A DNA stretch of 56,928 nucleotides from a virus: the IMG/VR virus record IMGVR_UViG_3300026097_000028, positions 1 to 56,928 of that record; one strand, 5' to 3'. Made by a program: the position numbers and the translations under genes. The notes beneath the pieces are model-generated. The model was given only the letters and a program-made list of their open reading frames with translations, was not told the origin of the DNA and did not search any database. Shown here piece after piece: positions 4,101 through 52,892 of this stretch; positions within the stretch are counted from its first letter, which is position 1; each line of letters starts with the position of its first letter.

Positions 4101-5165
4101 GCACTTGCAGTTTCTTGGGTAAATGGAAGATTAGTTGCTGCAAGAAATAAAGGACATCTAAAAAATAGTGGTGAGAATGCATTAGATATAAAAGCAGTTG
4201 CTGATAAGTTCGCTGGAAGGGGTGAATTGGAAAAAGCATACAACTTTGCTATGAAAGATTTATCTGATTCTATTAAATCACTATCATCAAAACAACGAGA
4301 GAAGATTTTTAAAGGAGGTTCGTGTTTTATGAACCTTGAAGTAATATATCCTACTTCAGTAAATGTAATTCCTTATGGTCAACCTCTATTAGTATTACAT
4401 GGAACAATGGAATATGATGAGAATGGTGTTGCAATTGGAGAAAATGCAGATGCTGGGAGAATCTTGGCAGGTATGATTAAACAAATCAACAAAGATGTAC
4501 AAAATAATTACACAATTCAAGGTCCACCTGTAATTAAATTACCAAAATCACAACAATTATCCTCTAAAAAAGGAAAATATACCTCACAAATTTCTAAATT
4601 ACAAAAAGAATTCGGTTTAAAGGATACTGATGGAGTTGCAGAATACCACCAAGAGTGGTGGAAACAATGGATTACTAAAAATTCACCAACAACACTCGAT
4701 AATAAAACTCTAATGGGGTTAGTTAAGAGATGGGCATTCATGGATAAGAAGTTTAGATTAGATAAAAAGAATATTGCTGATGAAAAAACTCTAATTTGGG
4801 CAAAGAAAATTGATTCACAAGACCAAAAGAAAATTTCAAAAGATAATTTAATGAAATTTGAAAATATTTTCTTAGGGGTTGGTGCAGATGTATTAGAATT
4901 TACATCATCAGTACTTACTGTAAACCCAGATGAAGCAGTTCGCTCGATAAAAAAGAGAATAGATAAGACAATTAAAGATGTTAAGAAATCAGGTGACCCT
5001 AAAAAGATTGAAAAATTAAAATTAGAGTTAAAACGATTACAATCTATTGGTGGTCCTTCTAAAATTGTACCAAATGAAGGAATTGTTTTCCAATATAAAG
5101 GAAATACTTTCAAATTGACTGGTGCATTCGCATCTGTAAATCAACTATTGGGTATATTCTTCTAA
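1158..5165 (+). CDS. Multi-enzyme head polyprotein: NMNAT-like, Zn ribbon, GNAT, HD, RNA/DNA ligase-like
   Basis: This 1335-residue protein is a string of separate domains. Residues 1-199 are a nucleotidyltransferase of the NMN-adenylyltransferase type, with GRFQPFHKGH at 29-38 and ISGTDVR at 156-162. Residues 216-359 are a conserved phage domain with SDVDDGP at 225-231. A small barrel-like part and a zinc ribbon (two CxxC pairs, 422-444) follow, then a very basic helical part (about 478-580). Residues 597-699 are a GNAT acetyltransferase (QRNKGIG at 630-636). Residues 700-863 are an HD phosphohydrolase (H747, H770-D771, H792, H824). Residues 938-1335 are a nucleotidyltransferase/ligase with KTDG (977-980, motif I), NLEVIY (about 1059, motif III-like), EGIVF (1307, motif IV) and FKLTG (1318, motif V). 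Glu-A/G/S sites of the gp21 type sit between these units (after 199, 215, 359, 470, 596, 699, 863/867, 893, 931 and 937). I infer a packaged precursor cut by the prohead protease. Domain calls are firm; packaging is inference. Confidence 0.8.
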   Translation: MNELSKYLVEQILLEDDNPIKKIVVVYVGRFQPFHKGHYSTYQHLVKKFGKNNVFIGTSNKVSKPKSPFNFKEKVQIMTSMFGIPKSKIHQVKNPYQPTEILKKFDETTTAFITVVGEKDKSRLGGKYFTPLKGTPTEGYRDRGYVYVSPSQSNPISGTDVRNGLSLGSDEQKQSFFTDRAYPKYNKTIFNLITSKLNEGIFIPKERIEEWLINEASNVVGNMGSDVDDGPNNFFPNFDIFSKINVKRAAKIGYEIVNMISSKELEDYYEHPIYPNGPVKAVTPFPAGVLGAKTATNQIDIYSSDAYSKWFTHVTRQAALVGYSVVSGIESNQTDKETALGSQQGDKESQSEYENSLKEAINLPVEIGDTLLMGKFKNKKVVVKSIGKDEHGMPTINGKKVVTFRYMNENFVVELAGTTIQCEKCNHSWEIESDDNEKYLCHSCGWDSQQQEYDYDAFDSWQEKNGILGESEDLEERGKMRPADKLRRKAAMAGKRAQIARRRARTMKRRKPLSKLKKIAYKMAYRQVYDEFAKELFPDIKKSDLSIKQSQVVHKNVVRKKGRILKRAKFKFLPVLRAKEVEKFSPKNEQITKINEGIENTLSSKYKVDLDIYEYPNHLELRRVVVPQDQRNKGIGSKVMQDLIKYAQQNNKDIFTTPSSDFGGSKSRLVQFYKSFGFKNNKGSNRDFRSKESMVRLSEGKELEKLGITNFKSLFKKMPSELQKRVYNLKNFGQRLDKHPEGNVLKHTITVVNRSLKDDDIDIAIAAMFHDIGKDETAGIHPKKGHITHFGHEKVSASLVKKYKDWIKSVGGNVANVLYVVKNHMRYKQLSDMRPIKQDKLKSFRAYDKLSKFSKHDRGGLGESLSESTDKLKLSIPTDIQKMHTAFKEKYNEGMNDNIDKLLEDLDNHIVEMFYPTTKTSDQLIKENINESNMLMEGGAYGHMNHPFDTEINLTFGQLKDIVNRALEGNLEFTREKTDGQALAVSWVNGRLVAARNKGHLKNSGENALDIKAVADKFAGRGELEKAYNFAMKDLSDSIKSLSSKQREKIFKGGSCFMNLEVIYPTSVNVIPYGQPLLVLHGTMEYDENGVAIGENADAGRILAGMIKQINKDVQNNYTIQGPPVIKLPKSQQLSSKKGKYTSQISKLQKEFGLKDTDGVAEYHQEWWKQWITKNSPTTLDNKTLMGLVKRWAFMDKKFRLDKKNIADEKTLIWAKKIDSQDQKKISKDNLMKFENIFLGVGADVLEFTSSVLTVNPDEAVRSIKKRIDKTIKDVKKSGDPKKIEKLKLELKRLQSIGGPSKIVPNEGIVFQYKGNTFKLTGAFASVNQLLGIFF

Positions 5166-5884: not shown

Positions 5885-6259
5885 ATGACGGGAGGACGAA
5901 ATCAATATTTAGTTTTAATCGTAATCCTTGGATTGCTGGTTTTTAATTTGTACAATATGAGACAGATTAAAACCGATATTGATGGGTTTAATGAAAAAAT
6001 TGAAAACATTGGTAAAGAAATAGATTCTATCCAAACTATGAATACTGAATTGGATAATTTAATAGAATCGTTACATACAGAACTCCAATTAATCGATGGT
6101 GATATAGATAGAGTTCAAAATAATATTTTTACAATAAGGAGAAACACAGATGAAAAAAGGAATTCTGTTAATAATTTTACTATTAGTGAGCTTCAAGAGT
6201 TTTTCGCAAAACGATACGATAGTATCATTGAAAAAACCAATAGCGAAACTAGTAATTAA
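5885..6259 (+). CDS. Inner-membrane spanin-like protein (N-terminal anchor plus coiled coil)
   Basis: The 124-residue product has one hydrophobic segment near the N-terminus (YLVLIVILGLLVFNLY, about residues 8-23). A long heptad-like region follows (about 27-105; IDGFNEKIENIGKEIDSI, with regular I/L spacing). This is the form of an inner-membrane spanin: an N-terminal anchor and a coiled-coil stalk in the periplasm. The last 110 bases overlap, in another frame, a gene for a secreted coiled-coil protein, as Rz and Rz1 genes do. Neither holin nor endolysin is visible nearby, so the lysis role rests on architecture alone. A structural membrane protein is the main alternative. Confidence 0.5.
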   Translation: MTGGRNQYLVLIVILGLLVFNLYNMRQIKTDIDGFNEKIENIGKEIDSIQTMNTELDNLIESLHTELQLIDGDIDRVQNNIFTIRRNTDEKRNSVNNFTISELQEFFAKRYDSIIEKTNSETSN

Positions 6260-6551
6260 AGATTTAATTGAAGGGGATGGTGTAAAGTTAGAATTACTAT
6301 CTCTTCAAGAACTTTTAAAATTAGAACAAAAGAAAGTTGTTCTAAAGGATTCTGTCATCGGTAACTTAAATTCTAAAGTTATCAACTTGGAAACTATTAT
6401 TTCAAAAAAAGATGAACAATTTGGTTTAGAATCAGAAAAATCTAAACAACTACTTAAAGAACTCAAACGAGAAAAGAGAAAAACATTTTTCTATAAAATA
6501 GGAACTTATGCAGCCGGTGTACTTGGGTTCCTATATCTTACTGCTAAATAA
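6150..6551 (+). CDS. Secreted coiled-coil protein overlapping the spanin-like gene
   Basis: The start at 6150 is set by a strong AAGGAG eight bases upstream and by a clear signal peptide (MKKGILLIILLLVSFKSFSQ), so this overlapped frame is real. The FSQ ending of the signal is typical of Bacteroidota exported proteins and is the best host clue in the window. After cleavage come a charged coiled coil (about residues 50-107) and a C-terminal hydrophobic segment (FFYKIGTYAAGVLGFLYL, about 111-128). Outer-membrane spanins are usually lipoproteins, but no lipobox cysteine is present here, and the C-terminal membrane segment is unusual. It may be a different spanin design or a periplasmic assembly factor. 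The stop overlaps the terminase start as TAATG. Confidence 0.55.
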   Translation: MKKGILLIILLLVSFKSFSQNDTIVSLKKPIAKLVIKDLIEGDGVKLELLSLQELLKLEQKKVVLKDSVIGNLNSKVINLETIISKKDEQFGLESEKSKQLLKELKREKRKTFFYKIGTYAAGVLGFLYLTAK

Positions 6552-8146
6552 TGGCTAAACAAACGTTAAAAGATATAATTAAATTAGAGTATCAGAAGTG
6601 TGCTGGTGACCCTATATACTTCATGAAGAAGTATTGTATGATACAACACCCAGTTCGTGGTAAAATTCCTTTTCAATTATATCCATTCCAAGAATCAACT
6701 CTAACACAATTTCACGAACATCGATATAACATCATTTTAAAATCTCGTCAAACAGGTATATCAACCTTAACTGCAGGATTTTCATTATGGAAGATGTTAT
6801 TCAATCAAGATTTTAACGTTCTTGTAATTGCAACCAAACAAGAGGTTGCAAAAAACTTGGTAACCAAGGTTCGAGTAATGAATCAGTATTTACCTTCTTG
6901 GTTAAAACAAACAACAGTAGAAGATAACAAATTATCTTTACGATATTCAAATGGTTCTCAAATCAAAGCAACATCTGCAGCAGGTGATGCGGGTCGTTCT
7001 GAAGCACTATCCTTATTAGTATTTGATGAGGCAGCCTTTATCGATAAGATTGAAGAAATTTGGGTATCTGCTCAATCTACCTTATCAACGGGTGGTAACG
7101 CAATTATCTTATCAACTCCAAATGGGGTAGGTAATTTCTTCCACAAAACTTGGGTAGGTGCAGAAGATGGTAGTAATGCCTTTAACACTATCCGATTACA
7201 TTGGTCAGTTCATCCTGAACGAGACCAAACTTGGAGAGATGAGCAAGAAGTTCTTTTAGGACCAAAAGGTGCAGCACAAGAATGTGATTGTGATTTTGTA
7301 AGTTCAGGTGATACTGTAATCGACCCACAACTTTTAATGTTCTACAAAGAAACTTACTGTCAAGAACCGGTAGAAAAGACTGGGTTCGATGGAAACCTTT
7401 GGAAATGGGAATACCCTAACTATCAGAAATCTTATATGGTCGTTGCCGATGTTGCTCGTGGTGATTCTGCTGATTTCTCTGCATGTCATGTTATCGATAT
7501 AGAGAACTCCGCACAAGTTGCAGAATATAAAGGTAAATTAGATACCAAAGATTTTGGAAACTTTCTCGTATCATTATCAACGGATTACAACAATGCACTG
7601 CTCGTAATTGAAAACGCAAATATTGGTTGGGCAGTAATTCAACAAGTAATCGATAGAGGATATCAAAACCTTTTCTATATGAGTAAGGATTTAAAGTATG
7701 TGGATGTAGAACATCAATTACATAATAAATACCGAGCAGAAGAACGAAATATGACCGCTGGATTTTCAACAACTTCTAAAACTCGTCCTTTGATTATTTC
7801 TAAAATGGAACAATACATCAGAGAGAAAGAAGTTCTTATACGTTCAACGAGAACCATAGATGAGTTATTTACTTTTATATGGAATGGAAATCGTGCTGAA
7901 GCAATGAGAGGATATAATGATGATTTAGTTATGTCCTTATCAATATCCCTTTGGGTTCGAGATACCGCACTTAGATTAAGGCAAGAAGGGATGGATTTAA
8001 CCTTAAACGCACTTGGTAGTATTTCTACTAACCAAACTTCTATTGGAAGTGGTGGAGGTGGGTTTGGTGGTAATTCATCATTGGAACAAAATCCATGGTC
8101 AATCGATGTTAATGGTTCCCAAGAAGATTTAACGTGGTTGTTGTAA
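6551..8146 (+). CDS. terL: Terminase large subunit (gp17-like)
   Basis: This is the ATP-driven motor that packages DNA into the prohead and cuts the concatemer. The 531 residues hold the expected parts in order. The ATPase has a Walker A-like SRQTGIST (65-72), Walker B LLVFDE with the catalytic glutamate (155-160) and the coupling motif LSTPNG (188-193). The RNase H-like nuclease has VVADVARGDSAD (first Asp at 300), LVIENANIGW (Glu at 354) and GYNDDLVMS near residue 457. The C-terminal tail is Gly-rich (SIGSGGGGFGG). Length is somewhat below T4 gp17 (610), the difference lying mostly in the N-terminal part. It is translationally coupled to the gene before it. No small terminase is recognisable in the window. 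Confidence 0.95.
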   Translation: MAKQTLKDIIKLEYQKCAGDPIYFMKKYCMIQHPVRGKIPFQLYPFQESTLTQFHEHRYNIILKSRQTGISTLTAGFSLWKMLFNQDFNVLVIATKQEVAKNLVTKVRVMNQYLPSWLKQTTVEDNKLSLRYSNGSQIKATSAAGDAGRSEALSLLVFDEAAFIDKIEEIWVSAQSTLSTGGNAIILSTPNGVGNFFHKTWVGAEDGSNAFNTIRLHWSVHPERDQTWRDEQEVLLGPKGAAQECDCDFVSSGDTVIDPQLLMFYKETYCQEPVEKTGFDGNLWKWEYPNYQKSYMVVADVARGDSADFSACHVIDIENSAQVAEYKGKLDTKDFGNFLVSLSTDYNNALLVIENANIGWAVIQQVIDRGYQNLFYMSKDLKYVDVEHQLHNKYRAEERNMTAGFSTTSKTRPLIISKMEQYIREKEVLIRSTRTIDELFTFIWNGNRAEAMRGYNDDLVMSLSISLWVRDTALRLRQEGMDLTLNALGSISTNQTSIGSGGGGFGGNSSLEQNPWSIDVNGSQEDLTWLL

Positions 8147-8178: not shown

Positions 8179-8196
8179 CTATAAGGAGAAGAAATA

Positions 8197-8614: not shown

Positions 8615-10348
8615 ATGGCAGATACTTCATTTTTTGGGAGGTTAACTAAACTCTTTCGTTCTCAAGCAATAGTTACGGTTGATAAGGATGGTAAGAGAAA
8701 AGTATATGATACTGATGAAAGACAGCAAACTAACTTATCATCTCTAAGAGATAGATACACTAAGTTACAGAAATCTTTCTATGAACAAGCGGGTGGTGCA
8801 CAATCAATGGCATACCAACAAGTTCGTAGAGAAGTTTTCCGTGATTATGATGCAATGGATAATGACCCTATTCTTGCTTCTGCATTAGATATCTACGCAG
8901 ATGAATCTACTTTAAAAAATGAGTTTGGTGATATCCTATTAGTTCATTCAGATAATGAAAAAGTTCAAGATGTTCTTAATAACTTATTTTACGATGTAAT
9001 GAACGTAGAGTTTAATTTATGGCCCTGGGTTCGTAATATGTGTAAGTATGGAGATTTCTTTTTAGGTTTAGAAGTTGCAGAAGGTAAGGGTATCGTTAAC
9101 GTTACTCCACATTCTGTTTACAATACCGAAAGATTAGAAAGAACCGACCCTTCAAATCCAAACTCAGTAAAGTTTAAAATTACCGAGGACCCGAATGGAA
9201 AAGAAGAATACGAAAATTTTGAAATTGCACACTTCAGATTATTAGCGGATACCAATTGGTTACCATATGGAAAATCAATGATTGAAAATGGTAGAAGATT
9301 GTGGAAACAGATTTCTTTAATGGAAGATGCAATGTTAATCCACAGAATTATGAGAGCACCTGAAAAGAGAGTTTTCAAAATTGATATTGGAAACATTGCT
9401 CCTACTGAAGTTGATAATTACATGCAAAGAATTATCAACAAGATGAAGAAAGTTCCTTTTGTTGATAGAAACACCGGCGATTATAACTTAAAGTATAATA
9501 TGCAGAACCTAACAGAAGATTTCTTCTTACCGGTTCGTGGTGGAGATAGTGGAACATCTATTGAAAACCTACCAGGCTTAGATACACCTTCATTGGATGA
9601 TATCGATTACTTAAAGAACAAGATGTTTGCTGCATTAAAAATTCCTCGTGCTTATTTAGGGTACGAAGAAAATGTAAATGGTAAAGCAACCCTTGCTGCA
9701 GAAGATGTAAGATTTGCAAGAACAATTGAAAGAATCCAAAGAACAGTAATTTCGGAATTATCTAAAATTGCCATCGTTCACTTATACTCACAAGGTATCC
9801 AAGATTCAGAGATGACTAATTTTAGTTTATCATTAGTAAACCCATCTACAATTTACGAACAAGAAAAAGTAAATCTTTGGTCAGAGAAAATTAGATTGGC
9901 TCAAGATATCCAAGGTCTTAATATGTTATCCAAAGATTGGGTATATGAAAACATCTTTAAACTATCTGATGGTGAACAAGATGAACAACGAGTTAAAATG
10001 TTAGATGATTTAAAAGATAGATATCGTTTCCGTTCTATTGAAGATGAAGGTAATGACCCTGCAATGGATGATGAAGAACCAAATGATATTGAAGAATCAT
10101 TGGAACAACTAAAACAAGAAATTAAAGATAAGGGTGGTAGACCGAGAGAAGGTGGAACCTATGGAAAAGATAAACACCCTTATGGTAGAGACCCTCTTGG
10201 TGATGATGAAAGAACCTCAAAACGTTCTCGAACATCCGAAGAAAAAGCGTTGAAAATCATCAACGGAATTGCATCAAAGAGAAAATATTTACACGAAAAT
10301 GGGAGTATGTTGAGTGAGGACAATATTCTCGAAGATACAGAAAATTAA
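8615..10348 (+). CDS. Portal vertex protein (gp20-like)
   Basis: This forms the dodecameric ring at the one capsid vertex through which DNA enters and leaves, and it nucleates prohead assembly. The 577-residue product has the gp20 hallmark near the N-terminus (MDNDPILASALDIYADE, 81-97), a WPWVRNMCKYGD block and the crown-side segment KIPRAYLGYEE. Length is close to T4 gp20 (524), with an extra charged C-terminal tail rich in Lys, Arg and Gly (about residues 500-577; RPREGGTYGKDKHPYGRDP). It follows terminase and precedes the core and protease genes, the usual T4-like order. The start follows a gap of 37 bases without a clear promoter, so it is probably read from 8169. Confidence 0.93.
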   Translation: MADTSFFGRLTKLFRSQAIVTVDKDGKRKVYDTDERQQTNLSSLRDRYTKLQKSFYEQAGGAQSMAYQQVRREVFRDYDAMDNDPILASALDIYADESTLKNEFGDILLVHSDNEKVQDVLNNLFYDVMNVEFNLWPWVRNMCKYGDFFLGLEVAEGKGIVNVTPHSVYNTERLERTDPSNPNSVKFKITEDPNGKEEYENFEIAHFRLLADTNWLPYGKSMIENGRRLWKQISLMEDAMLIHRIMRAPEKRVFKIDIGNIAPTEVDNYMQRIINKMKKVPFVDRNTGDYNLKYNMQNLTEDFFLPVRGGDSGTSIENLPGLDTPSLDDIDYLKNKMFAALKIPRAYLGYEENVNGKATLAAEDVRFARTIERIQRTVISELSKIAIVHLYSQGIQDSEMTNFSLSLVNPSTIYEQEKVNLWSEKIRLAQDIQGLNMLSKDWVYENIFKLSDGEQDEQRVKMLDDLKDRYRFRSIEDEGNDPAMDDEEPNDIEESLEQLKQEIKDKGGRPREGGTYGKDKHPYGRDPLGDDERTSKRSRTSEEKALKIINGIASKRKYLHENGSMLSEDNILEDTEN

Positions 10349-11282: not shown

Positions 11283-12153
11283 TAAATCATACTTAGATGA
11301 AATCATAGATGAAGTTCAAAGTGAGATGGATGAAGTAACCACAACTGGTAATGTTGCTGGTTATCAAACCCCAAATGCTTTTTCTGATAAAGGTTCTTCT
11401 GATAAGAAACGTAAGAAGAAAATGGCTAAGAGAATTGGTTATACATTAGCTGGTAAAGTTGATGAATCTTTTATGTCCGATTTAAATATCATTAAAAAAG
11501 GTTCTAAGAATATAACTGATTTTATTAAAAAAGTATTATCAGATAAACAATATAAAGAAGTTAGAACTGATAAAGAATTTCACAAATACTTAAAATCATT
11601 CTATAATGAATCAGTAAACGAATCAGATTTTAAAGGACAACTTGCTGGAGATTCGGTAGATTCACTTATTAAATCCATTGGTTCTCGTTTTGTAGAAAAG
11701 GAAATAAAAAACACTACTCGCGATGGAAAAACTTACATCAAACTAAAAGATGAAAAGTTTGGTAGTGGTGTGGTTAAGATATTAAAATCAAGATTTGGTA
11801 TTGATGCTAAGGTAGATTACTTTGGTGGTAAAGGTAAGATTGCAGCAACACCATCTGTATCATTTAAAAAAGACCAAATCATTTCAGAAGCAAAACAAAA
11901 AAGACCAGTAAATCGTTGGTTAGAATTAAAAAACGATGATACAATGCATCCACATAAAAAGATGGCAATGGGTCTTAAAGAATTAAAGTATCAGTTGGCA
12001 GAAACAGAAAAGTTTTTCAATTGGTATAATAAGATTAAAACGATGAATGAGTTGGATTCCCAAAAATATTGGAAAAGAACCCAAAATCATATTTATAAGA
12101 TAAAGGAAAGACTAATAAACATCGCTAAGACAATACAGGAGATAGAGAAATGA
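11263..12153 (+). CDS. Head-core/cargo protein with GYQTPNAF motif and cleavage sites
   Basis: The 296-residue product opens with a helical acidic segment and then TTTGNVAGYQTPNAF (26-40) followed by a Lys-rich stretch (KKRKKKMAKR). The TGNVAGYQTPxAF block recurs in T4-like head proteins. Several gp21-type sites are visible: VDE before Ser 69, VNE before Ser 121 and ISE before Ala 210. They divide the chain into parts of roughly 50-90 residues. The section 121-209 holds a small alpha/beta domain (KTYIKLKDEKFGSGVVKIL). The C-terminal section is helical with aromatic residues (FFNWYNKIK). I infer a prohead-core component processed during maturation. It overlaps both neighbours by 4-20 bases, so translation is coupled. 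Confidence 0.65.
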   Translation: MSMKQNNKSYLDEIIDEVQSEMDEVTTTGNVAGYQTPNAFSDKGSSDKKRKKKMAKRIGYTLAGKVDESFMSDLNIIKKGSKNITDFIKKVLSDKQYKEVRTDKEFHKYLKSFYNESVNESDFKGQLAGDSVDSLIKSIGSRFVEKEIKNTTRDGKTYIKLKDEKFGSGVVKILKSRFGIDAKVDYFGGKGKIAATPSVSFKKDQIISEAKQKRPVNRWLELKNDDTMHPHKKMAMGLKELKYQLAETEKFFNWYNKIKTMNELDSQKYWKRTQNHIYKIKERLINIAKTIQEIEK

Positions 12154-12653: not shown

Positions 12654-12830
12654 ATGACTAAATCAAGATTGTTAGAAATAATTAACGAAGAAATCACCAA
12701 CGTTAAGTGGGGGATGGTTAATGAAGAAATTACGAGTGAGGACGAAAAAAAGATTCGTGATATCATTCGTACCGAAGTTTCAGCAATATTTTTTGATTTA
12801 TTTAAGAAAAGAAAAACTTGGGGAGCATAA
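12654..12830 (+). CDS. Small head-cluster protein (58 aa)
   Basis: This ORF has ATG at 12654, preceded by AGGAAAATAAA, and ends in a TAATG overlap with the protease start at 12830. The 58 residues are helical and charged: MTKSRLLEIINEEI at the start, then a second half ending in FFDLFKKRKTWGA. The N-terminus matches the targeting-peptide style of its neighbours, and IINE occurs at residues 9-12. It sits in the slot of the small T4 core proteins before gp21. Function is not known. Confidence 0.65.
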   Translation: MTKSRLLEIINEEITNVKWGMVNEEITSEDEKKIRDIIRTEVSAIFFDLFKKRKTWGA

Positions 12831-13426
12831 TGAGTAACTTACTAATAGAAACCAGATTATTTGAAGGAAAGGTAAACGAGGACGAAGGTGGAAGAACCAT
12901 CGTTAAGGGTATCTTACAAAGAGCTGGCGCAGAAAACCAAAATGGTAGAATCTACCCAAAAGAAATCTTGGAGAGAGAAGCTAAGAAATACGAAACTCTT
13001 ATTAAAGAAAGACGTGCTCTTGGTGAATTAGACCATCCAGATTCATCGGTAATCAACCTAAAGAACGTATCTCACAATGTAAGAGAGATTCATTGGGATG
13101 GTGATGATTTAGTTGGTACCGTAGAGATACTCCCAACACCAAGTGGAAATATCCTTAAAGAACTTCTAAGAGCAGGTATCCTATTAGGTATATCATCAAG
13201 AGGTATGGGTTCAGTAACTCCAATGAAAGGTGCTGATAATGGAAAAGTTCAAGTAGGTGAAGATTTTGAATTGATTGGTTGGGATTTTGTATCTAACCCA
13301 TCAACCCACGGAGCATTTATGACACCAATGAACGAATCTGTGAACAAAGGAGTTCAAGGAGAAGTTTGTAATGAGTGGTGTAAGGCTCAAGATTTAATGA
13401 GAGAAATAATAACAGAAATATCATAA
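12830..13426 (+). CDS. Prohead core protease (gp21-like)
   Basis: This serine protease acts inside the prohead: it cuts scaffold, capsid and internal proteins, then itself. From ATG 12830 the product is 198 residues, close to T4 gp21 (212). A start at TTG 12818 is possible but lies inside the previous gene and adds nothing conserved. Visible family marks are NQNGRIYPKEIL (37-47), LDHPD with the catalytic His (69), GISSRGMGSV with the catalytic Ser (122 or 123) and GWDFVSNPSTHGAF (150-163), where Asp 152 may complete the triad. It carries likely self-cleavage sites, VNE before Asp 18 and MNE before Ser 170. The cleavage pattern seen in its neighbours fits the known T4 preference for a hydrophobic residue two places before Glu. 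Confidence 0.9.
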   Translation: MSNLLIETRLFEGKVNEDEGGRTIVKGILQRAGAENQNGRIYPKEILEREAKKYETLIKERRALGELDHPDSSVINLKNVSHNVREIHWDGDDLVGTVEILPTPSGNILKELLRAGILLGISSRGMGSVTPMKGADNGKVQVGEDFELIGWDFVSNPSTHGAFMTPMNESVNKGVQGEVCNEWCKAQDLMREIITEIS

Positions 13427-14665: not shown

Positions 14666-15418
14666 ATGAAACTAACTCAACTAATGAACGAAGGTGAAGA
14701 GAAAAGAGCTCTTTCTAACGAAGTTAAAAAACACTTCTTGGAAATCGTTTCTACTTACAACAAGTATCAAGAGATGATGGATAGAAAATCTGACATCGCA
14801 GAAATTGCTGAAACTCTTGGTGGTATAACTGAAGCAGCTAGAACTCTTGCAATCCACGAAGGTGATGATTGGTTCGACAAACATACAGTTAAACGAAACA
14901 TGAGTGAGTTAGATAAGTTAGGAAAACAATTCGATAAAGTTGCTCTTGAAGCTAAGGCATTAGACCAAAGAATGGCTGGATTATATGAAGATATGGGACA
15001 TATTCTTTCAAGATACTACAAAATAGGAGAAATCACAGAGGACCAAATGAAACAAAGATTGGGTATTCGTGAATCTAAAGAAGATTGTGGTTGTGGATGT
15101 GGTGGAGGATGTTCTGATTCTGTAAACGAAGAAACAATTGCAGAACAACCAGTAATGGTTTCTAAAAGAACTGAAAATGGAAACATCGTAACCACTCTAA
15201 AAGAAGTATCTGATTTAAACGAAGAAGAAATTAAACTTTATGAGTTCGGTCAGAAAGTAGAAAAACTAATGGAAAAAAGTTGTCCAACCGATAAAGGTAA
15301 ATGGGCAGCATCCAAAGCAGCAGCTAAAAAGAAATTTGATGTTTATCCATCTGCATACGCTAATGGTTGGGCAGCAAAAAATTACAAATCAAAAGGTGGT
15401 GGTTGGAGAAACTGTTAA
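14666..15418 (+). CDS. Head cargo protein with Cys/Gly cluster and C-terminal YPSAYANGWAAK domain
   Basis: The 250-residue product begins MKLTQLMNE before Gly 10, a clean gp21-type targeting peptide. Residues 11-135 are a long helical region. A remarkable CGCGCGGGC cluster (141-149) follows, with a VNE site just after it (152-155). The last 45 residues (KGKWAASKAAAKKKFDVYP, SAYANGWAAK, GGGWRN) form a small basic domain found alone or fused in many large viruses and phages. AAAGGAATT lies before the start. The cluster could bind a metal ion. I infer an internal head protein whose C-terminal domain touches DNA; no enzyme motif is visible. Confidence 0.65.
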   Translation: MKLTQLMNEGEEKRALSNEVKKHFLEIVSTYNKYQEMMDRKSDIAEIAETLGGITEAARTLAIHEGDDWFDKHTVKRNMSELDKLGKQFDKVALEAKALDQRMAGLYEDMGHILSRYYKIGEITEDQMKQRLGIRESKEDCGCGCGGGCSDSVNEETIAEQPVMVSKRTENGNIVTTLKEVSDLNEEEIKLYEFGQKVEKLMEKSCPTDKGKWAASKAAAKKKFDVYPSAYANGWAAKNYKSKGGGWRNC

Positions 15419-15431
15419 TAGGAGAATAGAA

Positions 15432-16232
15432 ATGGCATCAGTAGTAGGTAAAACAATTTTTTCAGATGGTAAAGGCAAGTTATTCTTTGGATACTACAAA
15501 GATAACGATGCGGTTGAGTTTGTTGATTACAAAACTTGGAAGAAACTTTCTTTCAAAGATGTATCCAAAGGTGATACCAACAAACAAAGAGTAATCAAAG
15601 CAATCGTAAAGAACCAAAAACAATTCAACAAGAAAGTTGATTTCAATATGTGGGCTAAGAAACAAAAAAGAAGTTTCGATGACACTATGGATTGGTTTAT
15701 CAAAAATGGTTGGATTTCTAACATTACCAAAAGAGGAATTAAAGAATCTGTTGATGTATTATCAGTAAACGAAGATAGAAATTCTAATATGTTCTATGTT
15801 CTATACCAAAAGAAAGGTGTCTTTGGTAAACCTGCAGCAGCTGGATATAAAGATAGAAAAGATGCTGAAAAATTTGCAAAGAGTTTAGGAAGTAATCACA
15901 ACACAATGATTCTTGATAAACAATCAATGAAGAATGTAAAGGGTGTTGATGTAAAAGAATCAGTAAACGAAGCTAAATTTGGATACAAAACTTCAACTGC
16001 ATCTTACATCAAGAAACACAAAGATGAGTATAAAAAAGCAGAGAAAATGAATAAAGGGAACGAAATGAAGTTCTACGATATGTTACAACAAATGGAAGAT
16101 AAAGTAGGACATCCTAAAACCATGTTATTCATTTCTAATGCACTTCGTGGATATGGTGTTGATATGTATAAAGACCCAAAGATTAAAAACCCTGCCGATG
16201 CACAAGAGGCTCTATTCTTATTAAGTAAATAA
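15432..16232 (+). CDS. Three-part head cargo protein with four cleavage sites
   Basis: The start is ATG 15432, preceded by AGGAGAATAGAA; the longer frame upstream overlaps the previous gene and is not needed. The 266 residues divide into three compact parts at IKE/Ser 106, VNE/Asp 115, VKE/Ser 177 and VNE/Ala 181. Part one (1-105) looks like a small DNA- or protein-binding fold with FNMWAKKQKR. Part two (115-176) is a short alpha/beta unit (MFYVLYQKKGVFGKPAAAGY). Part three (181-266) is helical. The repeated sequence ESVNEA in this and neighbouring genes is almost the same linker. No catalytic motif seen. It is another candidate polyprotein precursor of internal head proteins. Confidence 0.6.
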   Translation: MASVVGKTIFSDGKGKLFFGYYKDNDAVEFVDYKTWKKLSFKDVSKGDTNKQRVIKAIVKNQKQFNKKVDFNMWAKKQKRSFDDTMDWFIKNGWISNITKRGIKESVDVLSVNEDRNSNMFYVLYQKKGVFGKPAAAGYKDRKDAEKFAKSLGSNHNTMILDKQSMKNVKGVDVKESVNEAKFGYKTSTASYIKKHKDEYKKAEKMNKGNEMKFYDMLQQMEDKVGHPKTMLFISNALRGYGVDMYKDPKIKNPADAQEALFLLSK

Positions 16233-17890: not shown

Positions 17891-17900
17891 TATATTTATA
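17891..17900 (+). promoter_or_regulatory. Late-promoter-like motif TATATTTATA
   Basis: This exact copy lies in the 52-base gap between the glycosyltransferase-like gene and the bS21 gene, 30 bases before the latter's start. Confidence 0.6.
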
Positions 17901-17930
17901 CACAATCAAGTTTACATTAAAAATTATATA

Positions 17931-18257
17931 ATGGCAAGACATACAACTAAGGTTAGAGTAGAAGTTAGAAAAGGTGATATTAACAGAGCCTTAAAAATCT
18001 TTAAAAGAAGAGGAATGGATTCTGGTCATCTTCAAGAACTAAAAGATAGAAAAGAATACACTAAACCAAAAACCGCTCGTAGAAAACAAAAGTTAGATGC
18101 GATACGTAGAAATAACAAAGAAGTTTTGTTTGAAAAATGGGAAAATGGTGATAATACTATAACTCTTTTTAACGAAAAGAAACAAAAATTCAAAAAATCT
18201 TCTAACTCAGAAGAAAAAACCATAGAAAATTATGGTTTACGTGTGGATAATAAATAA
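17931..18257 (+). CDS. rpsU: Ribosomal protein bS21 homologue
   Basis: The 108-residue product carries the bS21 signature in its first 65 residues: VEVRKGDINRALKIFKRR (10-27), then a helix with LKDRKEYTKPKTARRKQKL (37-55). bS21 sits on the small ribosomal subunit next to the 3' end of 16S rRNA and affects start-site choice. Cellular versions are about 60-70 residues; this one has an extra tail of about 40 charged residues without similarity I know. Phage-borne bS21 genes are known in aquatic phages. In flavobacterial ribosomes bS21 helps hide the anti-Shine-Dalgarno bases, so a phage copy could change which messages are translated. It has its own promoter motif but no strong AGGAG of its own. 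Confidence 0.85.
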   Translation: MARHTTKVRVEVRKGDINRALKIFKRRGMDSGHLQELKDRKEYTKPKTARRKQKLDAIRRNNKEVLFEKWENGDNTITLFNEKKQKFKKSSNSEEKTIENYGLRVDNK

Positions 18258-18262
18258 ATCAA

Positions 18263-19141
18263 ATGAAAGAACTCATCGTTACTGGTGATAGTTGGACATT
18301 TGGTAGTGAAATCCGAAATCCTGAATTATTTTCTAAATACAAAGATATACCTGATTGGGATGAAAGAAATGATGAGTATAGGATTTCACGTATTTGGCCA
18401 ACTTTACTATCTAAAAAATTAGGATTTGATTCTTGTAAAAACTTATCATTTGTAGCTGCATCTAATGATAAAGCAATACGAAATCTTATAAATTATTTAA
18501 CAAAAGAATATATTTCTAAAAATAAAGATTTAAGTGATATATTTGTTGTAATTGGGTTAACCTCACCTGAACGTAGAGATTTTTACTATAAAAATAAAAA
18601 AAGTAATTCAGGTTGGATAACATTATGGCCAGCATGGGAACATAACTATAATCAAGAAGGTGTAAATGATTTTGTAAAATCATACGTATCATATTTTTGG
18701 AATGAAGAAGAATTCCTAAACAGATATGTAAATCAATTATTATACTTACAAACTCTATTAGAATCGTATAATATACAATACTTAATATTCCAGTCCTTTT
18801 ATCAACCACAAATTGATTATTATAAAATAAATACGTGGAAAGATACACCATATGTAAATTTATGGAATAATTCTTTTCATGGTTCATCCGATACCATAGA
18901 TACTAAATATTATAATGGTTCATCTGAACGTGAAATTTGGGATATGATTAATCCTATAAAATTTATGAATAAAGATAAAGATATTCATTCTTTTCATGGT
19001 TATTTGGTTAAAAATGGTCAATGGTCTAATAAATCAAATACTGATTATAATATGTTACATCCAAATGAACATGGTCATAAACTATGGGCAGATGAATTAT
19101 ACAACTATATAGAATCTAATAATTTATATAGAAAAATATAG
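18263..19141 (+). CDS. SGNH-hydrolase-like protein
   Basis: The 292-residue product begins KELIVTGDSWTFGSE, the block I of SGNH esterases with the nucleophile Ser at 10 (GDSW), and ends with LHPNEHGHKLWADEL (about 265-279), the block V with the catalytic Asp/His pair replaced by Asn-Glu-His spacing (HPNEHGH). A middle part has IFVVIGLTSPERRDFY, like the block III region where the Asn or Gly lies. Such genes occur in T4-like phages among structural genes; a role in deacylating surface sugars is possible. It is AT-rich like the two glycosyltransferase-like genes. The start is five bases after the bS21 stop, so the two are likely co-transcribed. Confidence 0.6.
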   Translation: MKELIVTGDSWTFGSEIRNPELFSKYKDIPDWDERNDEYRISRIWPTLLSKKLGFDSCKNLSFVAASNDKAIRNLINYLTKEYISKNKDLSDIFVVIGLTSPERRDFYYKNKKSNSGWITLWPAWEHNYNQEGVNDFVKSYVSYFWNEEEFLNRYVNQLLYLQTLLESYNIQYLIFQSFYQPQIDYYKINTWKDTPYVNLWNNSFHGSSDTIDTKYYNGSSEREIWDMINPIKFMNKDKDIHSFHGYLVKNGQWSNKSNTDYNMLHPNEHGHKLWADELYNYIESNNLYRKI

Positions 19142-20515: not shown

Positions 20516-22117
20516 ATGGCAAATTTTGATTTATCTAAACTTATGGAAGGAAAGAACCCACAACAAGTAATGTTGGCTGAAACTCGCGAGTTGAGAAGCA
20601 AATGGGAACAAACTGGACTTCTTGAAGGTTTAAAAGAAAGAGAGCAATCTCAAATTAGTGTTCTTTTAGAGAACCAAGCAAAACAATTATTAGATGAAGC
20701 AACAGCAACTGGAACTTCTGCAGGTTCAGAAGAGTGGAGTGGTGTTGCATTACCATTGGTAAGAAGAATTTTCGGTGAAATTGCATCGAAAGAATTCGTT
20801 TCTGTACAACCAATGAACTTACCATCAGGACTTATTTTCTATCTTGATTTCAAGTATGGAACTGCTCAAGCAGGTAACCCAGCTTTCGATACTAAATCAC
20901 TTTTCGGTGGTACTGGAAATGATTTGGGTTCAACTGACTCTGCCGTAAATGGTTTATATGGTGAAGGTAGATTTGGATACACAGTAAATGATGTATCTGC
21001 TGCTGACGTAACTGTTATCTCTCAAGCTTCTGCTTCATGGGATGAAGTAGGATATGATTCAGCATTATCTGCATCTGTTGCGGATGGTTCTTTAGCTAAA
21101 ATTATCGTAGCTCAATCTGGATTAGAAGGAGCTGATTTAGATGCAGTTCGTTCATTCGTACTTGCAGATACTGCAATTGATGATTTCTACCCAGCACACT
21201 CTAAAGTATCTGGAGCTAACTTCGTATTCTTTGTATCTCAAACTGGTACAATCGCTGCAGTAGATTCTATTTCTTACTCTAAACAACCAACTGATATCAC
21301 ACGAGGTGATTTCGAAGATAAGAGTCCAGTAATGGGAGGTTCATCTCCTTCTGGTACTGCTTTGGATATTCCAGAAGTAGACTTAGAATTGAAGTCTGAG
21401 GCAATTGTTGCTAAGACAAGAAAACTAAAGGCTGTGTGGACTCCTGAGTTGGCACAAGACTTAAATGCTTACCACTCAATTGATGCTGAAGCTGAATTAA
21501 CTTCTATGTTATCTGAGTACATCTCATTAGAGATTGACTTAGAAATCTTAGATATGTTAAAAGCTAACGCTTTAACAACTGAGTACTGGTCGGTAACTTT
21601 AGGTGAGGAGTACAACTCTGCAACTGGTGCTTGGGTAGCTGGTGGTTCTGCTGCTGCATACAACAAAAACTCTTGGTTCCAAACTTTAGGAACTAAATTG
21701 AACAAAGTTTCTAACAAAATTCACCAATTAACATTAAGAGGTGGAGCTAACTTCGTAGTTGCTTCTCCTGATGTATGTACAATCTTAGAATCTATTCCAG
21801 GATTTACAGTATCTGCTGATAAAGATGCAATGTCTTTCGCAGCTGGTGTAACAACTGTTGGTGCTATTGCAAACAGATATACTGTTTACAAAAACCCTTA
21901 CATGACTTCTAATGAAATCTTATTAGGATTCAAAGGTTCTAACTTCTTGGAAACTGGTGCAGTTTATGCTCCTTATGTTCCATTAATCATGACGCCACTT
22001 GTTTATGACCCAACAAACTTTACACCACGTAGAGGGGTAATGACAAGATACGCTAAGAAAATGGTTAGACCAGAATTCTACGGAAAAATCTATGTTAAAG
22101 ATTTAGCTAACGTATAA
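20516..22117 (+). CDS. Major capsid protein (gp23-like)
   Basis: The 533-residue product matches T4 gp23 (521) in length and layout. The first 61 residues are a helical propeptide ending LLDE, followed by Ala 62 (ATATGTSAGSEEW), where the prohead protease should cut; T4 gp23 is cut after residue 65. Family marks include LPLVRRIFGEI and SVQPMNLPSGLIFYLDFKYG (near 98-118), and the C-terminal half has VASPDVCTILESIPGF and the end block RRGVMTRYAKKMVRP. AAAGGAAAAATAAAA precedes the start. A terminator hairpin follows the gene. Codon choice here looks more even than in the accessory genes, as expected of the most highly expressed protein. Confidence 0.95.
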   Translation: MANFDLSKLMEGKNPQQVMLAETRELRSKWEQTGLLEGLKEREQSQISVLLENQAKQLLDEATATGTSAGSEEWSGVALPLVRRIFGEIASKEFVSVQPMNLPSGLIFYLDFKYGTAQAGNPAFDTKSLFGGTGNDLGSTDSAVNGLYGEGRFGYTVNDVSAADVTVISQASASWDEVGYDSALSASVADGSLAKIIVAQSGLEGADLDAVRSFVLADTAIDDFYPAHSKVSGANFVFFVSQTGTIAAVDSISYSKQPTDITRGDFEDKSPVMGGSSPSGTALDIPEVDLELKSEAIVAKTRKLKAVWTPELAQDLNAYHSIDAEAELTSMLSEYISLEIDLEILDMLKANALTTEYWSVTLGEEYNSATGAWVAGGSAAAYNKNSWFQTLGTKLNKVSNKIHQLTLRGGANFVVASPDVCTILESIPGFTVSADKDAMSFAAGVTTVGAIANRYTVYKNPYMTSNEILLGFKGSNFLETGAVYAPYVPLIMTPLVYDPTNFTPRRGVMTRYAKKMVRPEFYGKIYVKDLANV

Positions 22118-22653: not shown

Positions 22654-22673
22654 TTAAATAGGAGAATAAAATT

Positions 22674-23017: not shown

Positions 23018-23049
23018 GTAGTATAATTGTATAATAAGGAGAGTAATAT

Positions 23050-30272: not shown

Positions 30273-30296
30273 GTATAATAAGGAGAATAAAATAAT

Positions 30297-48541: not shown

Positions 48542-48826
48542 ATGGCGGAAGCAATTAAATTTACGGAAGAAGAAGTAAATTCAATCAATCAACTAAGACA
48601 AGATGTAGCAAGTGTGTTTACACAATTAGGACAAGTTGCTATTGAAAAGAAAAGAAGAATTACTGAAATTGAGGGAGTTGAATCTCAATTGTTACAAAAA
48701 CATTCGGATTTACAACAACAAGAACAAGAATTGTTCAATGGTTTGAATGAAAAATATGGAGACGGAAATTACGACCCTACAACAGGTGAGTTTACCCCAA
48801 CTCCAAAAGAAGATACTAAAGAGTAA
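48542..48826 (+). CDS. Small coiled-coil tail protein (94 aa)
   Basis: The product starts AEAIKFTEEEVNSINQLRQD and forms one long coiled coil to about residue 68 (LGQVAIEKKRRITEIEGV, LLQKHSDLQQQEQELF), then ends in YGDGNYDPTTGEFTPTP. This N-terminal FTEEE and C-terminal YG.G..DP.TGEFTP pattern occurs in a known small family of T4-like phages, function unknown. It lies between the fibre cluster and the tail sheath. Confidence 0.65.
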   Translation: MAEAIKFTEEEVNSINQLRQDVASVFTQLGQVAIEKKRRITEIEGVESQLLQKHSDLQQQEQELFNGLNEKYGDGNYDPTTGEFTPTPKEDTKE

Positions 48827-48859: not shown

Positions 48860-48903
48860 TAAGAGTATTATTATACAAAAATATTAACAAGGAGTAATAA
48901 AAC

Positions 48904-51201
48904 ATGGCAGAAAAGATTGTATCACCTGGTGTATTTACAAGAGAGAATGACCTTTCTTTCTTATCACAAGGGATTGGAGAAATCGGAGCAGCAATAATTG
49001 GACCATTCCATAAAGGACCTGCATTCGTACCAACCGTAGTAAACACCCAATCAGAATTTGAATCAATATTCGGTACACCGAATGGTGATTTCTACACGGG
49101 ATATACCGTACAAAACTATTTAAGAGAAGCTGGAACAGTAACTATCGTTCGTGTTGGACACGTTGGTGGTTATTCTCACGTTGACCCAATTGCTATTAAA
49201 GTAAGTGGTTCAAGTGGTATTCAAGTTGTTGGTACTCTTAATGTAACTCACAATGGTGATGAATCAGTTGGTTTGCCTGATACTATTATCGATTCTCAAC
49301 CATCTGCTTCCGCATTCTCTATTTCAGGTTCTGAATTAGGAACTGAAGTATCTGCATCTATCTTACCATCTGCTGGTAATGATTTATCAGATGTATTTGG
49401 TGAGAATGCTAGAGGTTCTAAAAATGCTTATGTTTACAATTACTATGAATCAGCAGCAACTAATCAATCTGATGAACTTACTGCAGGAGGACAAGTAATT
49501 TTAGAAACAATGCCAGAGCAAGATTTTGGTTATGATATCCAACATGCATCTACTCCTTGGATTCAATCACAACTAATTTCAGGTGAGAGAAGTAACTTAT
49601 TCAAATTACACACTCTTGGTGATGGTTCAAACTATAACAAAGAATATAAAGTATCTATCTTTAATGTAAAAGCAGCAGGAGAGACTAACTCTACTGACTA
49701 CGCTACATTCTCATTAATGATTAGAGGATATTCTGATACTGATAGAAGAAAATCTGTATTAGAAACTTACAATAACTTAACGATGGACCCTGCTTCACCA
49801 AACTATATCAAAAAGATTATTGGTGATATGAATGTTACTATTGATGCAAATGGTAAACAAACATTAAATGGTGATTATCAAAACCGTTCTCAATTCGTAC
49901 GAGTTGAAACGGTTGAAGAAGGTTCATTCCCAATCACAGCAGGACCTTTTGGACATGAAGCTTATGCTAATACAATATTAGTTGCTGATGAAACTGAAGT
50001 ACCTGCAGTAGTATTCTCAACAAATTCAGATGATAACACTGCTTCATCTGCTACATCATTTAGTGGTATTGATTTAGAAACTACTTTAGTTAAGATTGAT
50101 AACTCACATTACCTTAAACCAATTCCTGATGGAGCTGGTGTAGGTTCTAACGTTGCATTCGCATTCGATTCTGGTGAATTATCTTATGAATTAACCGGTT
50201 CTGATTCTGCAGATGTAAATAAAAGACAATTTACAGTAGGATTCCAAGGTGGATTCGATGGTGTATCTCCGACCGTATCTATTGATAAAGGTTCTGATAT
50301 GGCAGTTGGGAACTCCCAAGGATTTGATTTATCCACTTCAACCGCTAGTGGTTCAGTTGCATATGTAAAAGCAATTGCTTCTGTATCTAATCCAGATGAT
50401 TTTGATATTAACTTAGTATCGGTACCGGGTGTAATTAGACAGTATCATTCTTATGTATTTGATAAAGTAACTGATATGGTTGAATCTCGTGAAGATGCAT
50501 TCTTCATTGGTGATGTAGTTGGTGTAGATAGTACTATAACTGATGCAATAGAACAAGGTAATAATGTAGATTCTAACTATGTTGGAACTTACTACCCATG
50601 GGTTAAAACAATCGATTCAAGAACAAATAAACTAACTTCAGTTCCACCATCGGTATTGATGCCAGGAATCTACGCTTCTAACGATGCAGTTGCAGCTGAA
50701 TGGTTTGCACCAGCAGGTTTAAATAGAGGTGGAGTTGTAGGAGCAGTTTCTGTTCTAAACAGATTAACTCACGCTGAAAGAGATACACTATATGAAGGTA
50801 AGATTAACCCAATCGCGCAATTTCCTGGAGAAGGTATCGTTGCATTCGGACAAAAAACCTTACAAGATAGAGCATCTGCACTTGATAGAATCAATGTTCG
50901 TAGATTGTTGATTAAAGTTAAGAAATACATCGCATCTACATCAAGATACCTTGTATTCGAACAAAATACGGCAACAACTCGTTCTAAATTCTTGAATACT
51001 GTTAATCCTTATTTAGAAGGAATCCAACAAAGACAAGGTTTATACTCGTTTAGAGTAGTAATGGATGAATCTAACAACACACCAGATGTAATTGATAGAA
51101 ACATCTTGGCAGGGGCTATTTACTTACAACCTACTAAGACTGCTGAATTCATTGTAATTGATTTCAACATTCTACCGACTGGGGCTAGTTTCACCGCATA
51201 A
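48904..51201 (+). CDS. Tail sheath protein (gp18-like)
   Basis: This is the contractile sheath subunit; it forms the outer tube that shortens to drive the tail tube through the cell envelope. The 765-residue product begins IVSPGVFTRENDLSFLSQG, the typical sheath N-terminus (SPGV.T.E.D), followed by GAAIIGPFHKGPAFVPTVVN. The C-terminal part (from about 600) has WFAPAGLNRGGVVGAVSVLN, then QFPGEGIVAFGQKTLQ and a long helix with VRRLLIKVKKYIASTSRYLV, all sheath hallmarks. Length exceeds T4 gp18 (659), the extra residues lying in the variable middle domain (about 100-500), which is exposed on the tail surface. A strong ribosome site precedes it. Confidence 0.95.
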   Translation: MAEKIVSPGVFTRENDLSFLSQGIGEIGAAIIGPFHKGPAFVPTVVNTQSEFESIFGTPNGDFYTGYTVQNYLREAGTVTIVRVGHVGGYSHVDPIAIKVSGSSGIQVVGTLNVTHNGDESVGLPDTIIDSQPSASAFSISGSELGTEVSASILPSAGNDLSDVFGENARGSKNAYVYNYYESAATNQSDELTAGGQVILETMPEQDFGYDIQHASTPWIQSQLISGERSNLFKLHTLGDGSNYNKEYKVSIFNVKAAGETNSTDYATFSLMIRGYSDTDRRKSVLETYNNLTMDPASPNYIKKIIGDMNVTIDANGKQTLNGDYQNRSQFVRVETVEEGSFPITAGPFGHEAYANTILVADETEVPAVVFSTNSDDNTASSATSFSGIDLETTLVKIDNSHYLKPIPDGAGVGSNVAFAFDSGELSYELTGSDSADVNKRQFTVGFQGGFDGVSPTVSIDKGSDMAVGNSQGFDLSTSTASGSVAYVKAIASVSNPDDFDINLVSVPGVIRQYHSYVFDKVTDMVESREDAFFIGDVVGVDSTITDAIEQGNNVDSNYVGTYYPWVKTIDSRTNKLTSVPPSVLMPGIYASNDAVAAEWFAPAGLNRGGVVGAVSVLNRLTHAERDTLYEGKINPIAQFPGEGIVAFGQKTLQDRASALDRINVRRLLIKVKKYIASTSRYLVFEQNTATTRSKFLNTVNPYLEGIQQRQGLYSFRVVMDESNNTPDVIDRNILAGAIYLQPTKTAEFIVIDFNILPTGASFTA

Positions 51202-51229: not shown

Positions 51230-51252
51230 AGTATAATAGGAGAATAAACAAA

Positions 51253-51744
51253 ATGGCAGAAGTATTAGAATTTAACGATATGTTCTACACGAACTTCGAA
51301 CCGAAGATGAAGAACAGATACATCATGGAAATTGATGGTATCCAATCTTATCTTATCAAGGCTGCAAACAGACCTTCAATTACGTTCGAAAAGGTAACAC
51401 TTGACCACATTAATGTTAAAAGACAATTAAAAGGTAAAGGTGAGTGGCAAGATATCGAAATTACATTATTTGACCCAATTGTTCCAAGTGGAGCACAGCA
51501 GGTGATGGAGTGGATTAGAACCTCTCATGAATCTTTAACTGGTAGAGATGGATATGCGGATTTTTACAAAAAAGATGTAGATATCTATATGTTAGGACCA
51601 GTTGGTGATAAAATTGAAAATTGGAAAATCAAAGGAGCATTTATCCAATCAGCAAACTTTGGTAGTTTAGAATGGGCAAGTGCAACTGATGTAGCTGAAA
51701 TTACTTTAACTTTATCTTACGATTACGCAGTTTTAGAATACTAA
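51253..51744 (+). CDS. Tail tube protein (gp19-like)
   Basis: The 163-residue product equals T4 gp19 (163) in length. It has the tube-fold pattern MKNRYIMEIDGIQSYLIKAA (17-36), then PSITFEKVTLDHINVKRQLK, ITLFDPIVPSGAQQVMEWI and a C-terminal AEITLTLSYDYAVLEY. It stacks in hexameric rings inside the sheath. It has its own promoter motif, an AGGAG twelve bases upstream of ATG and a terminator behind it, so it is likely expressed at a high level. Confidence 0.93.
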   Translation: MAEVLEFNDMFYTNFEPKMKNRYIMEIDGIQSYLIKAANRPSITFEKVTLDHINVKRQLKGKGEWQDIEITLFDPIVPSGAQQVMEWIRTSHESLTGRDGYADFYKKDVDIYMLGPVGDKIENWKIKGAFIQSANFGSLEWASATDVAEITLTLSYDYAVLEY

Positions 51745-52861: not shown

Positions 52862-52892
52862 GTAGTATAAAACTATAAAGGAGAAACTCCCT

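Follow-up and report, generated by a model that had tools for sequence, protein, structure and literature searches.

A phage bS21 with arginine in place of Tyr54 and a late Shine-Dalgarno regulon in T4-like phages of putative Bacteroidota hosts

Phage homologues of ribosomal protein bS21 have been proposed to replace the host protein and to select phage messages (Mizuno 2019, PMC6375957; Al-Shayeb 2020; Chen 2022, PMC9723584; McNutt 2023, PMC9976891), and two of these studies (Chen 2022; McNutt 2023) already put forward the entry of such a protein into Bacteroidota ribosomes to the benefit of late phage messages. In Flavobacterium johnsoniae, Tyr54 of bS21 is stacked on A1534 and turns the tail of the 16S rRNA, which bears the anti-Shine-Dalgarno (anti-SD) bases, towards bS18 and bS6, and translation from strong Shine-Dalgarno (SD) sites rises when Tyr54 is changed to alanine (Y54A) or when bS21 lacks its C-terminal region (PMC9976891). 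Here we describe a bS21 gene (17931..18257, plus strand, 108 amino acids) in IMG/VR record IMGVR_UViG_3300026097_000028, a fragment of 56,928 nt without tRNAs, from a marine phage, that is called the window below, together with the SD sites in the window and in its relatives.

The open reading frame (ORF) matches the Pfam family Ribosomal_S21 (PF01165) over residues 10-61 (E 3.9e-11, 42.9 bits, cut-off 27) as well as PHROG 21469, 'ribosomal protein S21', in agreement with the initial annotation, which had called it a clear bS21 homologue with a 40-residue extra tail. This C-terminal extension of about 40 residues (18135..18254, plus strand; alignment A1) is real and is kept in the relatives L003-L005. 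The initial annotation had also named conservation of every anti-SD-hiding residue, combined with a lack of effect on SD reporters, as a reason to give up its reading of the gene, that the phage protein may free the anti-SD of host ribosomes. The key residue is replaced: in alignment A1, Arg59 (codon 18105..18107, plus strand) is aligned with Tyr54 of the F. johnsoniae protein, whose sequence was checked against PDB 7jil, Tyr54 being the one contact of the 16S tail that the comparison covered. An aromatic residue at this position is the mark of the Bacteroidia-type, anti-SD-hiding bS21, and the window protein lacks it. Arginine is also present in the nearest relatives, L003-L005 and L009. In L006-L008, which are carried by SD-poor phages, the residue is tyrosine despite an N-terminal half very similar to that of the window protein. 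Relative to published phage bS21, arginine at the Tyr54 position appears from the alignment to be new.

In its setting the gene resembles those described in Chen 2022 (PMC9723584). There, too, bS21 lies beside terminase, portal, protease and capsid genes, the predicted hosts are Bacteroidota, and selection of phage transcripts at a late stage was proposed. However, all 61 phage bS21 of that study have an aromatic residue at position 54, where the window phage has arginine, and their genes are on the strand opposite to their neighbours, whereas the window gene is co-directional with the late operon. A late-gene SD tag is not reported in the excerpts available of that study, whereas late genes in the window are SD-tagged. 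With the bS21-deficient ribosomes of F. johnsoniae (McNutt 2023, PMC9976891) the window system would share a lost contact between Tyr54 and the 16S tail, which there favours strong-SD messages. The sole clear target in that system is the host gene rpsU (autoregulation), whereas the bS21 encoded by the window phage would guide ribosomes to dozens of late genes of that phage. The bS21 of phage HTVC008M is likewise phage-encoded and was shown to be incorporated into Escherichia coli ribosomes, but this phage infects Pelagibacter and not Bacteroidota (Mizuno 2019, PMC6375957). In the literature searched, parts of which were available as excerpts, we found no description of SD-tagged late genes in Bacteroidota phages and none of a phage bS21 that has lost Tyr54. 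By capsid and terminase (53-57% identity), the nearest named relatives of the window phage are Flavobacterium phage immuto (MW353176) and Mel-JY01 (PP395634). Mel-JY01 has bS21 between its protease and capsid genes and carries SDs throughout, unlike the window clade, and immuto, unlike the window phage, has neither bS21 nor SDs.

The comparison shows a late SD regulon: phages of the window clade have late genes tagged with SDs and early genes without them, a pattern of two initiation grammars that is new here. In the window, AGGAG occurs at -20..-4 of 9 of the 44 gene starts, against a mean of 0.35 and a maximum of 3 in 1000 shuffles, and SD 5-mers precede 20% of the genes versus 3% of the internal ATGs. 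The sites, all on the plus strand, lie at 6137..6141 (gene starting at 6150), 8184..8188 (8197), 15420..15424 (ATG at 15432), 22660..22664 (22674), 23037..23041 (23050, a neck or head-tail adaptor), 30281..30285 (30297), 48890..48894 (tail sheath), 51238..51242 (tail tube) and 52879..52883 (52893, 69 amino acids). The ATG at 15432 is internal to the longest ORF, 15336-16232, and is probably the true start. These nine sites had been cited in the initial annotation for the claim that many genes carry AGGAG. All nine are indeed present 5' of an ATG, and a tenth was found at 12137..12141 on the plus strand (gene starting at 12150), but the tag is less general than the claim implied, about half of the window genes having no 4-base SD core.

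The contrast between early and late genes was clearest in G001, a 276-kb near-complete relative that holds the bS21 locus L101 and whose terminase and capsid are 88.5% and 79% identical to those of the window. G001 (L194-L207) has identical gene starts at about 0.9 kb and 274.8 kb, which suggests that the contig is complete and terminally redundant. For each start, picked regardless of SD, the preceding 20 bases were scored for pairing with the anti-SD. From 100 to 160 kb, where the structural genes and bS21 are located, the mean pairing energy (dG) was -5.5 to -3.1 kcal/mol. Elsewhere in the genome it was mostly -0.4 to -1.4 kcal/mol, which is weaker than the value for internal ATGs (-2.0) and indicates that SDs are avoided there, with intermediate stretches at 40-80 kb (-3.1 and -2.5) and 220-240 kb (-2.8). 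An SD core precedes 22 of the 37 homologues of window late genes (59%) versus 41 of 254 other genes (16%; p 7e-8), and the structural module was the most extreme of 291 circular shifts. Among labelled genes, SDs are found with 12 of 15 structural or lysis genes and 2 of 13 others (p 0.002). Genes for helicase, SbcC, ribonucleotide reductase, DNA polymerase and methyltransferase are without SD.

The same contrast is seen in other genomes, where SDs precede 9/23 structural homologues versus 19/215 remaining genes in G008, 9/27 versus 13/241 in G014 and 6/11 versus 6/89 in G322. It is present within the single contigs G318, G320 and G322, and G317 shows the same direction, with a dG contrast that is not significant and SD counts that are (p 0.01). 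For a clade-wide comparison, 13 late loci of the window clade were set against 37 loci around relatives (at least 82% identity) of the G001 DNA polymerase. SD cores precede 96 of 188 genes (51%) at the former and 31 of 337 (9%) at the latter (p 3e-26), and the contrast holds when genes shorter than 100, 150 or 250 amino acids are excluded. The expectation of the initial annotation that late messages are SD-tagged is thus borne out, because the early genes of the same phages, as seen in these relatives, are without SDs.

Highly expressed phage genes tend towards A-rich leaders, and the purine-rich late leaders might simply keep starts unstructured without any pairing to the anti-SD. The leaders of immuto and G014 are indeed A-rich. 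However, AGGAG is found in 46 late leaders of the clade, against 3-7 for permutations of the same letters other than the shifted GGAGA (42), its position peaks at -14..-11, and in immuto, Colly_1 and FCL-2 the structural genes, although highly expressed, are without AGGAG, so that this explanation is very hard to credit. Recent import of the structural module from a phage whose host uses SDs, with old SDs left functionless, would fit the location of most SDs within one contiguous module. Yet in G001 the genes for two baseplate wedge proteins, hub-lysozyme and endolysin, some of them in the intermediate stretches, are SD-tagged far outside it. Also, the SDs of tail sheath and tube persist in diverged relatives, being kept in all bS21-bearing SD-poor relatives that have the gene on the contig and absent in immuto. 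Because the capsid tree nests the SD-tagged window clade within a mostly SD-poor group, its SDs were probably gained and not inherited from an ancestor with an SD-using host, and we regard import as improbable.

The relation of late SDs to bS21 and to its residue 54 was examined with control genomes. Bacteroidota phage isolates without bS21 (immuto, Colly_1 and FCL-2; absence checked) have SD cores in about 6% of structural genes (1 of 17 in immuto), and in crAss001, also without bS21, the figure is 19%, versus 15% at internal ATGs. Phages that are SD-tagged throughout (G012, G011 and Mel-JY01) have SDs at 30-43% of non-late and 44-76% of late genes. With tyrosine at position 54, G007 lacks a late excess (2/13 versus 18/140). 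Pooled SD-poor genomes with an Arg54 bS21 (G001, G008, G014, G322, G005 and G018) have SDs at 50 of 111 late genes versus 3 of 31 in the group that has Tyr54 or lacks bS21 (immuto, G007 and G006; p 0.0003), a comparison of few, phylogenetically non-independent lineages. Left out of the Arg54 pool, solely because 15% of its remaining genes carry SDs, was G002, an Arg54 genome without SD excess (2/11 late versus 12/81 other genes); with it the pool becomes 52/122. Late SDs and Arg54 bS21 co-occur, but only among SD-poor genomes, and because SD use does not follow residue 54 over the full set of loci, a simple rule by which Arg54 means SD was rejected. SD-rich phages with Tyr54 that were examined are L082, L090, L094, L011 and L012. 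Paired Bacteroidota promoters were not found in G009 and G010, the genomes that hold L082 and L090, and G009 is SD-tagged throughout.

That residue 54 is insufficient as a predictor of SD use also favours an explanation in which another phage factor removes host bS21, the late SDs are read by bS21-less ribosomes, and phage bS21 has a different task, for example restoring 30S assembly. Ribosomes of F. johnsoniae without bS21 already favour strong-SD messages, and a phage protease against host bS21 was speculated on by the authors (PMC9976891). On the other hand, phages of Bacteroidota hosts without bS21 show no late SDs, loss of bS21 also lowers SD-less initiation, and the N-terminal part of the protein appears essential (PMC9976891). 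We consider this explanation unlikely.

A host outside Bacteroidota had been named in the initial annotation as a further reason to abandon its reading; instead, the relative G001, which has an SD-poor early half, carries TTG-N20-TAnnTTTG with the exact 20-base spacer upstream of SD-less genes, a motif that we take to be the Bacteroidota housekeeping promoter. A sense-strand peak at spacer 20 is also present in G008, G014, G005 and Mel-JY01, and was not found in G012, G011 and G009. The window, made up almost entirely of late genes, did not show the promoter, and a late promoter candidate, TATAAATA, had no clear enrichment. When GTDB genomes were scanned with the phage profile, 29 host bS21 were confirmed, all from Bacteroidia and, where aligned, all with Tyr54, the search pattern being derived from the phage bS21 query itself. 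Assignment of the host by closest bacterial bS21, which gave Bacteroidia only, was rejected on account of this origin of the pattern. Assignment by nearest named phage was rejected as ambiguous, since Flavobacterium phage immuto and the Microcystis-labelled Mel-JY01 are nearly equal and the latter label is doubtful. Mel-JY01 (PP395634.1; L016, L247-L256) has 24 sense-strand TTG-N20-TAnnTTTG promoters despite its Microcystis label and is most closely related to Bacteroidota phages; the assignment to Microcystis may be a mistake.

The translation start of bS21 itself differs from those of the tagged late genes. The initiation region in the window (17891..17930, plus strand; upstream ...acattaaaaattatata) has no SD, with a dG to the anti-SD of +2.0 kcal/mol, and the starts in L003-L005 are also without SD. 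Such a start would be readable by unmodified host ribosomes, as a switch requires. In L009, L097, L101-L103 and L106, AGGAG is located at -6, one base from the ATG, instead of the -14..-11 of late genes; the five cases of AGGAG at -6 in the pooled late set correspond to the five such bS21 loci in that pool. No bS21 start examined has a well-spaced SD. One may speculate that the misplaced AGGAG provides negative feedback, i.e., autoregulation, once the anti-SD is free.

These observations are consistent with a switch of the initiation code in mid-infection, in which the bS21 gene would act as a ribosome-modifying late-stage factor of a T4-like Bacteroidota phage. To our knowledge, a hidden anti-SD has been described for Bacteroidia only. 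Ribosomes of a Bacteroidia host would fold the anti-SD away and translate SD-less messages, which would explain why the early phage genes, as seen in the relatives, are SD-less. Phage bS21 would be made from its SD-less start and would displace host bS21 in 30S subunits. With arginine for Tyr54 and a different C-terminus, it would no longer pin the 16S 3' tail, so that the anti-SD becomes free and AGGAG-bearing structural and lysis messages would be initiated in preference to SD-less host and early messages. We put the probability of this switch, by which a Tyr54-less phage bS21 makes SD-blind Bacteroidota ribosomes SD-reading and the bS21 start adds feedback, at roughly 45%. To the proposal that the phage protein takes the place of its host counterpart, exposes the anti-SD and steers ribosomes to late mRNAs with an SD tag, we give about even odds. 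We infer that bS21 is the agent of the late SD regulon, and the earlier reading of the gene as a ribosome switch is partly supported.

Several observations weigh against the switch. The window is the late half only of its phage, and data on the early half stem from relatives. A late rise also occurs in an ordinary phage of an SD-using host, G012, with SDs at 75% of late and 39% of other genes. Among SD-poor branches of the tree other than the window clade, late SDs are about as frequent at Arg54 loci (21%) as at aromatic-54 loci (22%). Finally, some Bacteroidota, from lineages that are probably not Bacteroidia, have Arg54 in their own bS21 and use SDs, and the phage host could therefore be one of them.

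In the main rival explanation, such a host outside Bacteroidia has an Arg54 bS21 and partial SD use, phage bS21 mimics the host protein, the late SDs mimic those of highly expressed host genes, and no switch takes place. Many score-sampled Bacteroidota bS21 have Arg54, in a context (KAIRRNQRA) close to that of the phage (DAIRRNNKE), SD cores precede about 6-64% of genes in 20-kb stretches of Arg54 genomes, and Mel-JY01, a related Arg54 phage with the same promoter type, is SD-tagged throughout. However, an SD-using host would be expected to give this pattern of Mel-JY01 in the window clade as well, whereas early genes (DNA-polymerase loci) of the relatives avoid SDs to the same extent as 418 genes of Bacteroidia Tyr54 host loci (dG -0.68 versus -0.66 kcal/mol; SD core 9% versus 5.5%), below the background of internal ATGs. 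The 29 host bS21 found with the phage profile also point to Bacteroidia. We consider this explanation possible but clearly weaker than the switch. Among Bacteroidota genomes, those with Arg54 bS21 (L391-L420, L421-L439) often use SDs, unlike Tyr54 genomes; at L397 the Arg54 rpsU still has a very strong SD (-16.6 kcal/mol). Two to four bS21 paralogues each occur in the Bacteroidota genomes G019-G021 (those of L165, L174 and L178).

The remaining genes of the window fit a T4-like (Gp23) myovirus, with Gp23 capsid, T4-type portal, terminase and contractile sheath. On the plus strand, the bS21 gene sits inside a late module with the terminase large subunit (6551..8146; PHROG 2, 54.6% to phage immuto), portal protein (8615..10348; PHROG 213), head maturation protease (12830..13426; PHROG 207), major capsid protein Gp23 (20516..22117; PF07068, E 2.7e-77), the adaptor, and tail sheath (48904..51201) and tube (51253..51744). 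The gene adjoining bS21 (18263-19141) matches DUF6071 (PF19547) and has several relatives in G001. Positions 1158-5165 encode a 1335-residue protein with a cytidylyltransferase-like N-terminal part and 73% identity over 591 residues to a G001 protein. The late genes at 48542 and 51854 have homologues in G001, G317, G318 and G320, and SDs are absent in every relative; these genes may be leaderless or coupled.

Phages very often carry bS21, and the two-grammar pattern provides a sequence-level mark of what the protein could select. The idea of specialised ribosomes now becomes testable through a single substitution (Arg59Tyr) and a pair of reporters that differ in AGGAG. If true, the switch would parallel, at the level of translation, the change from early to late transcription.
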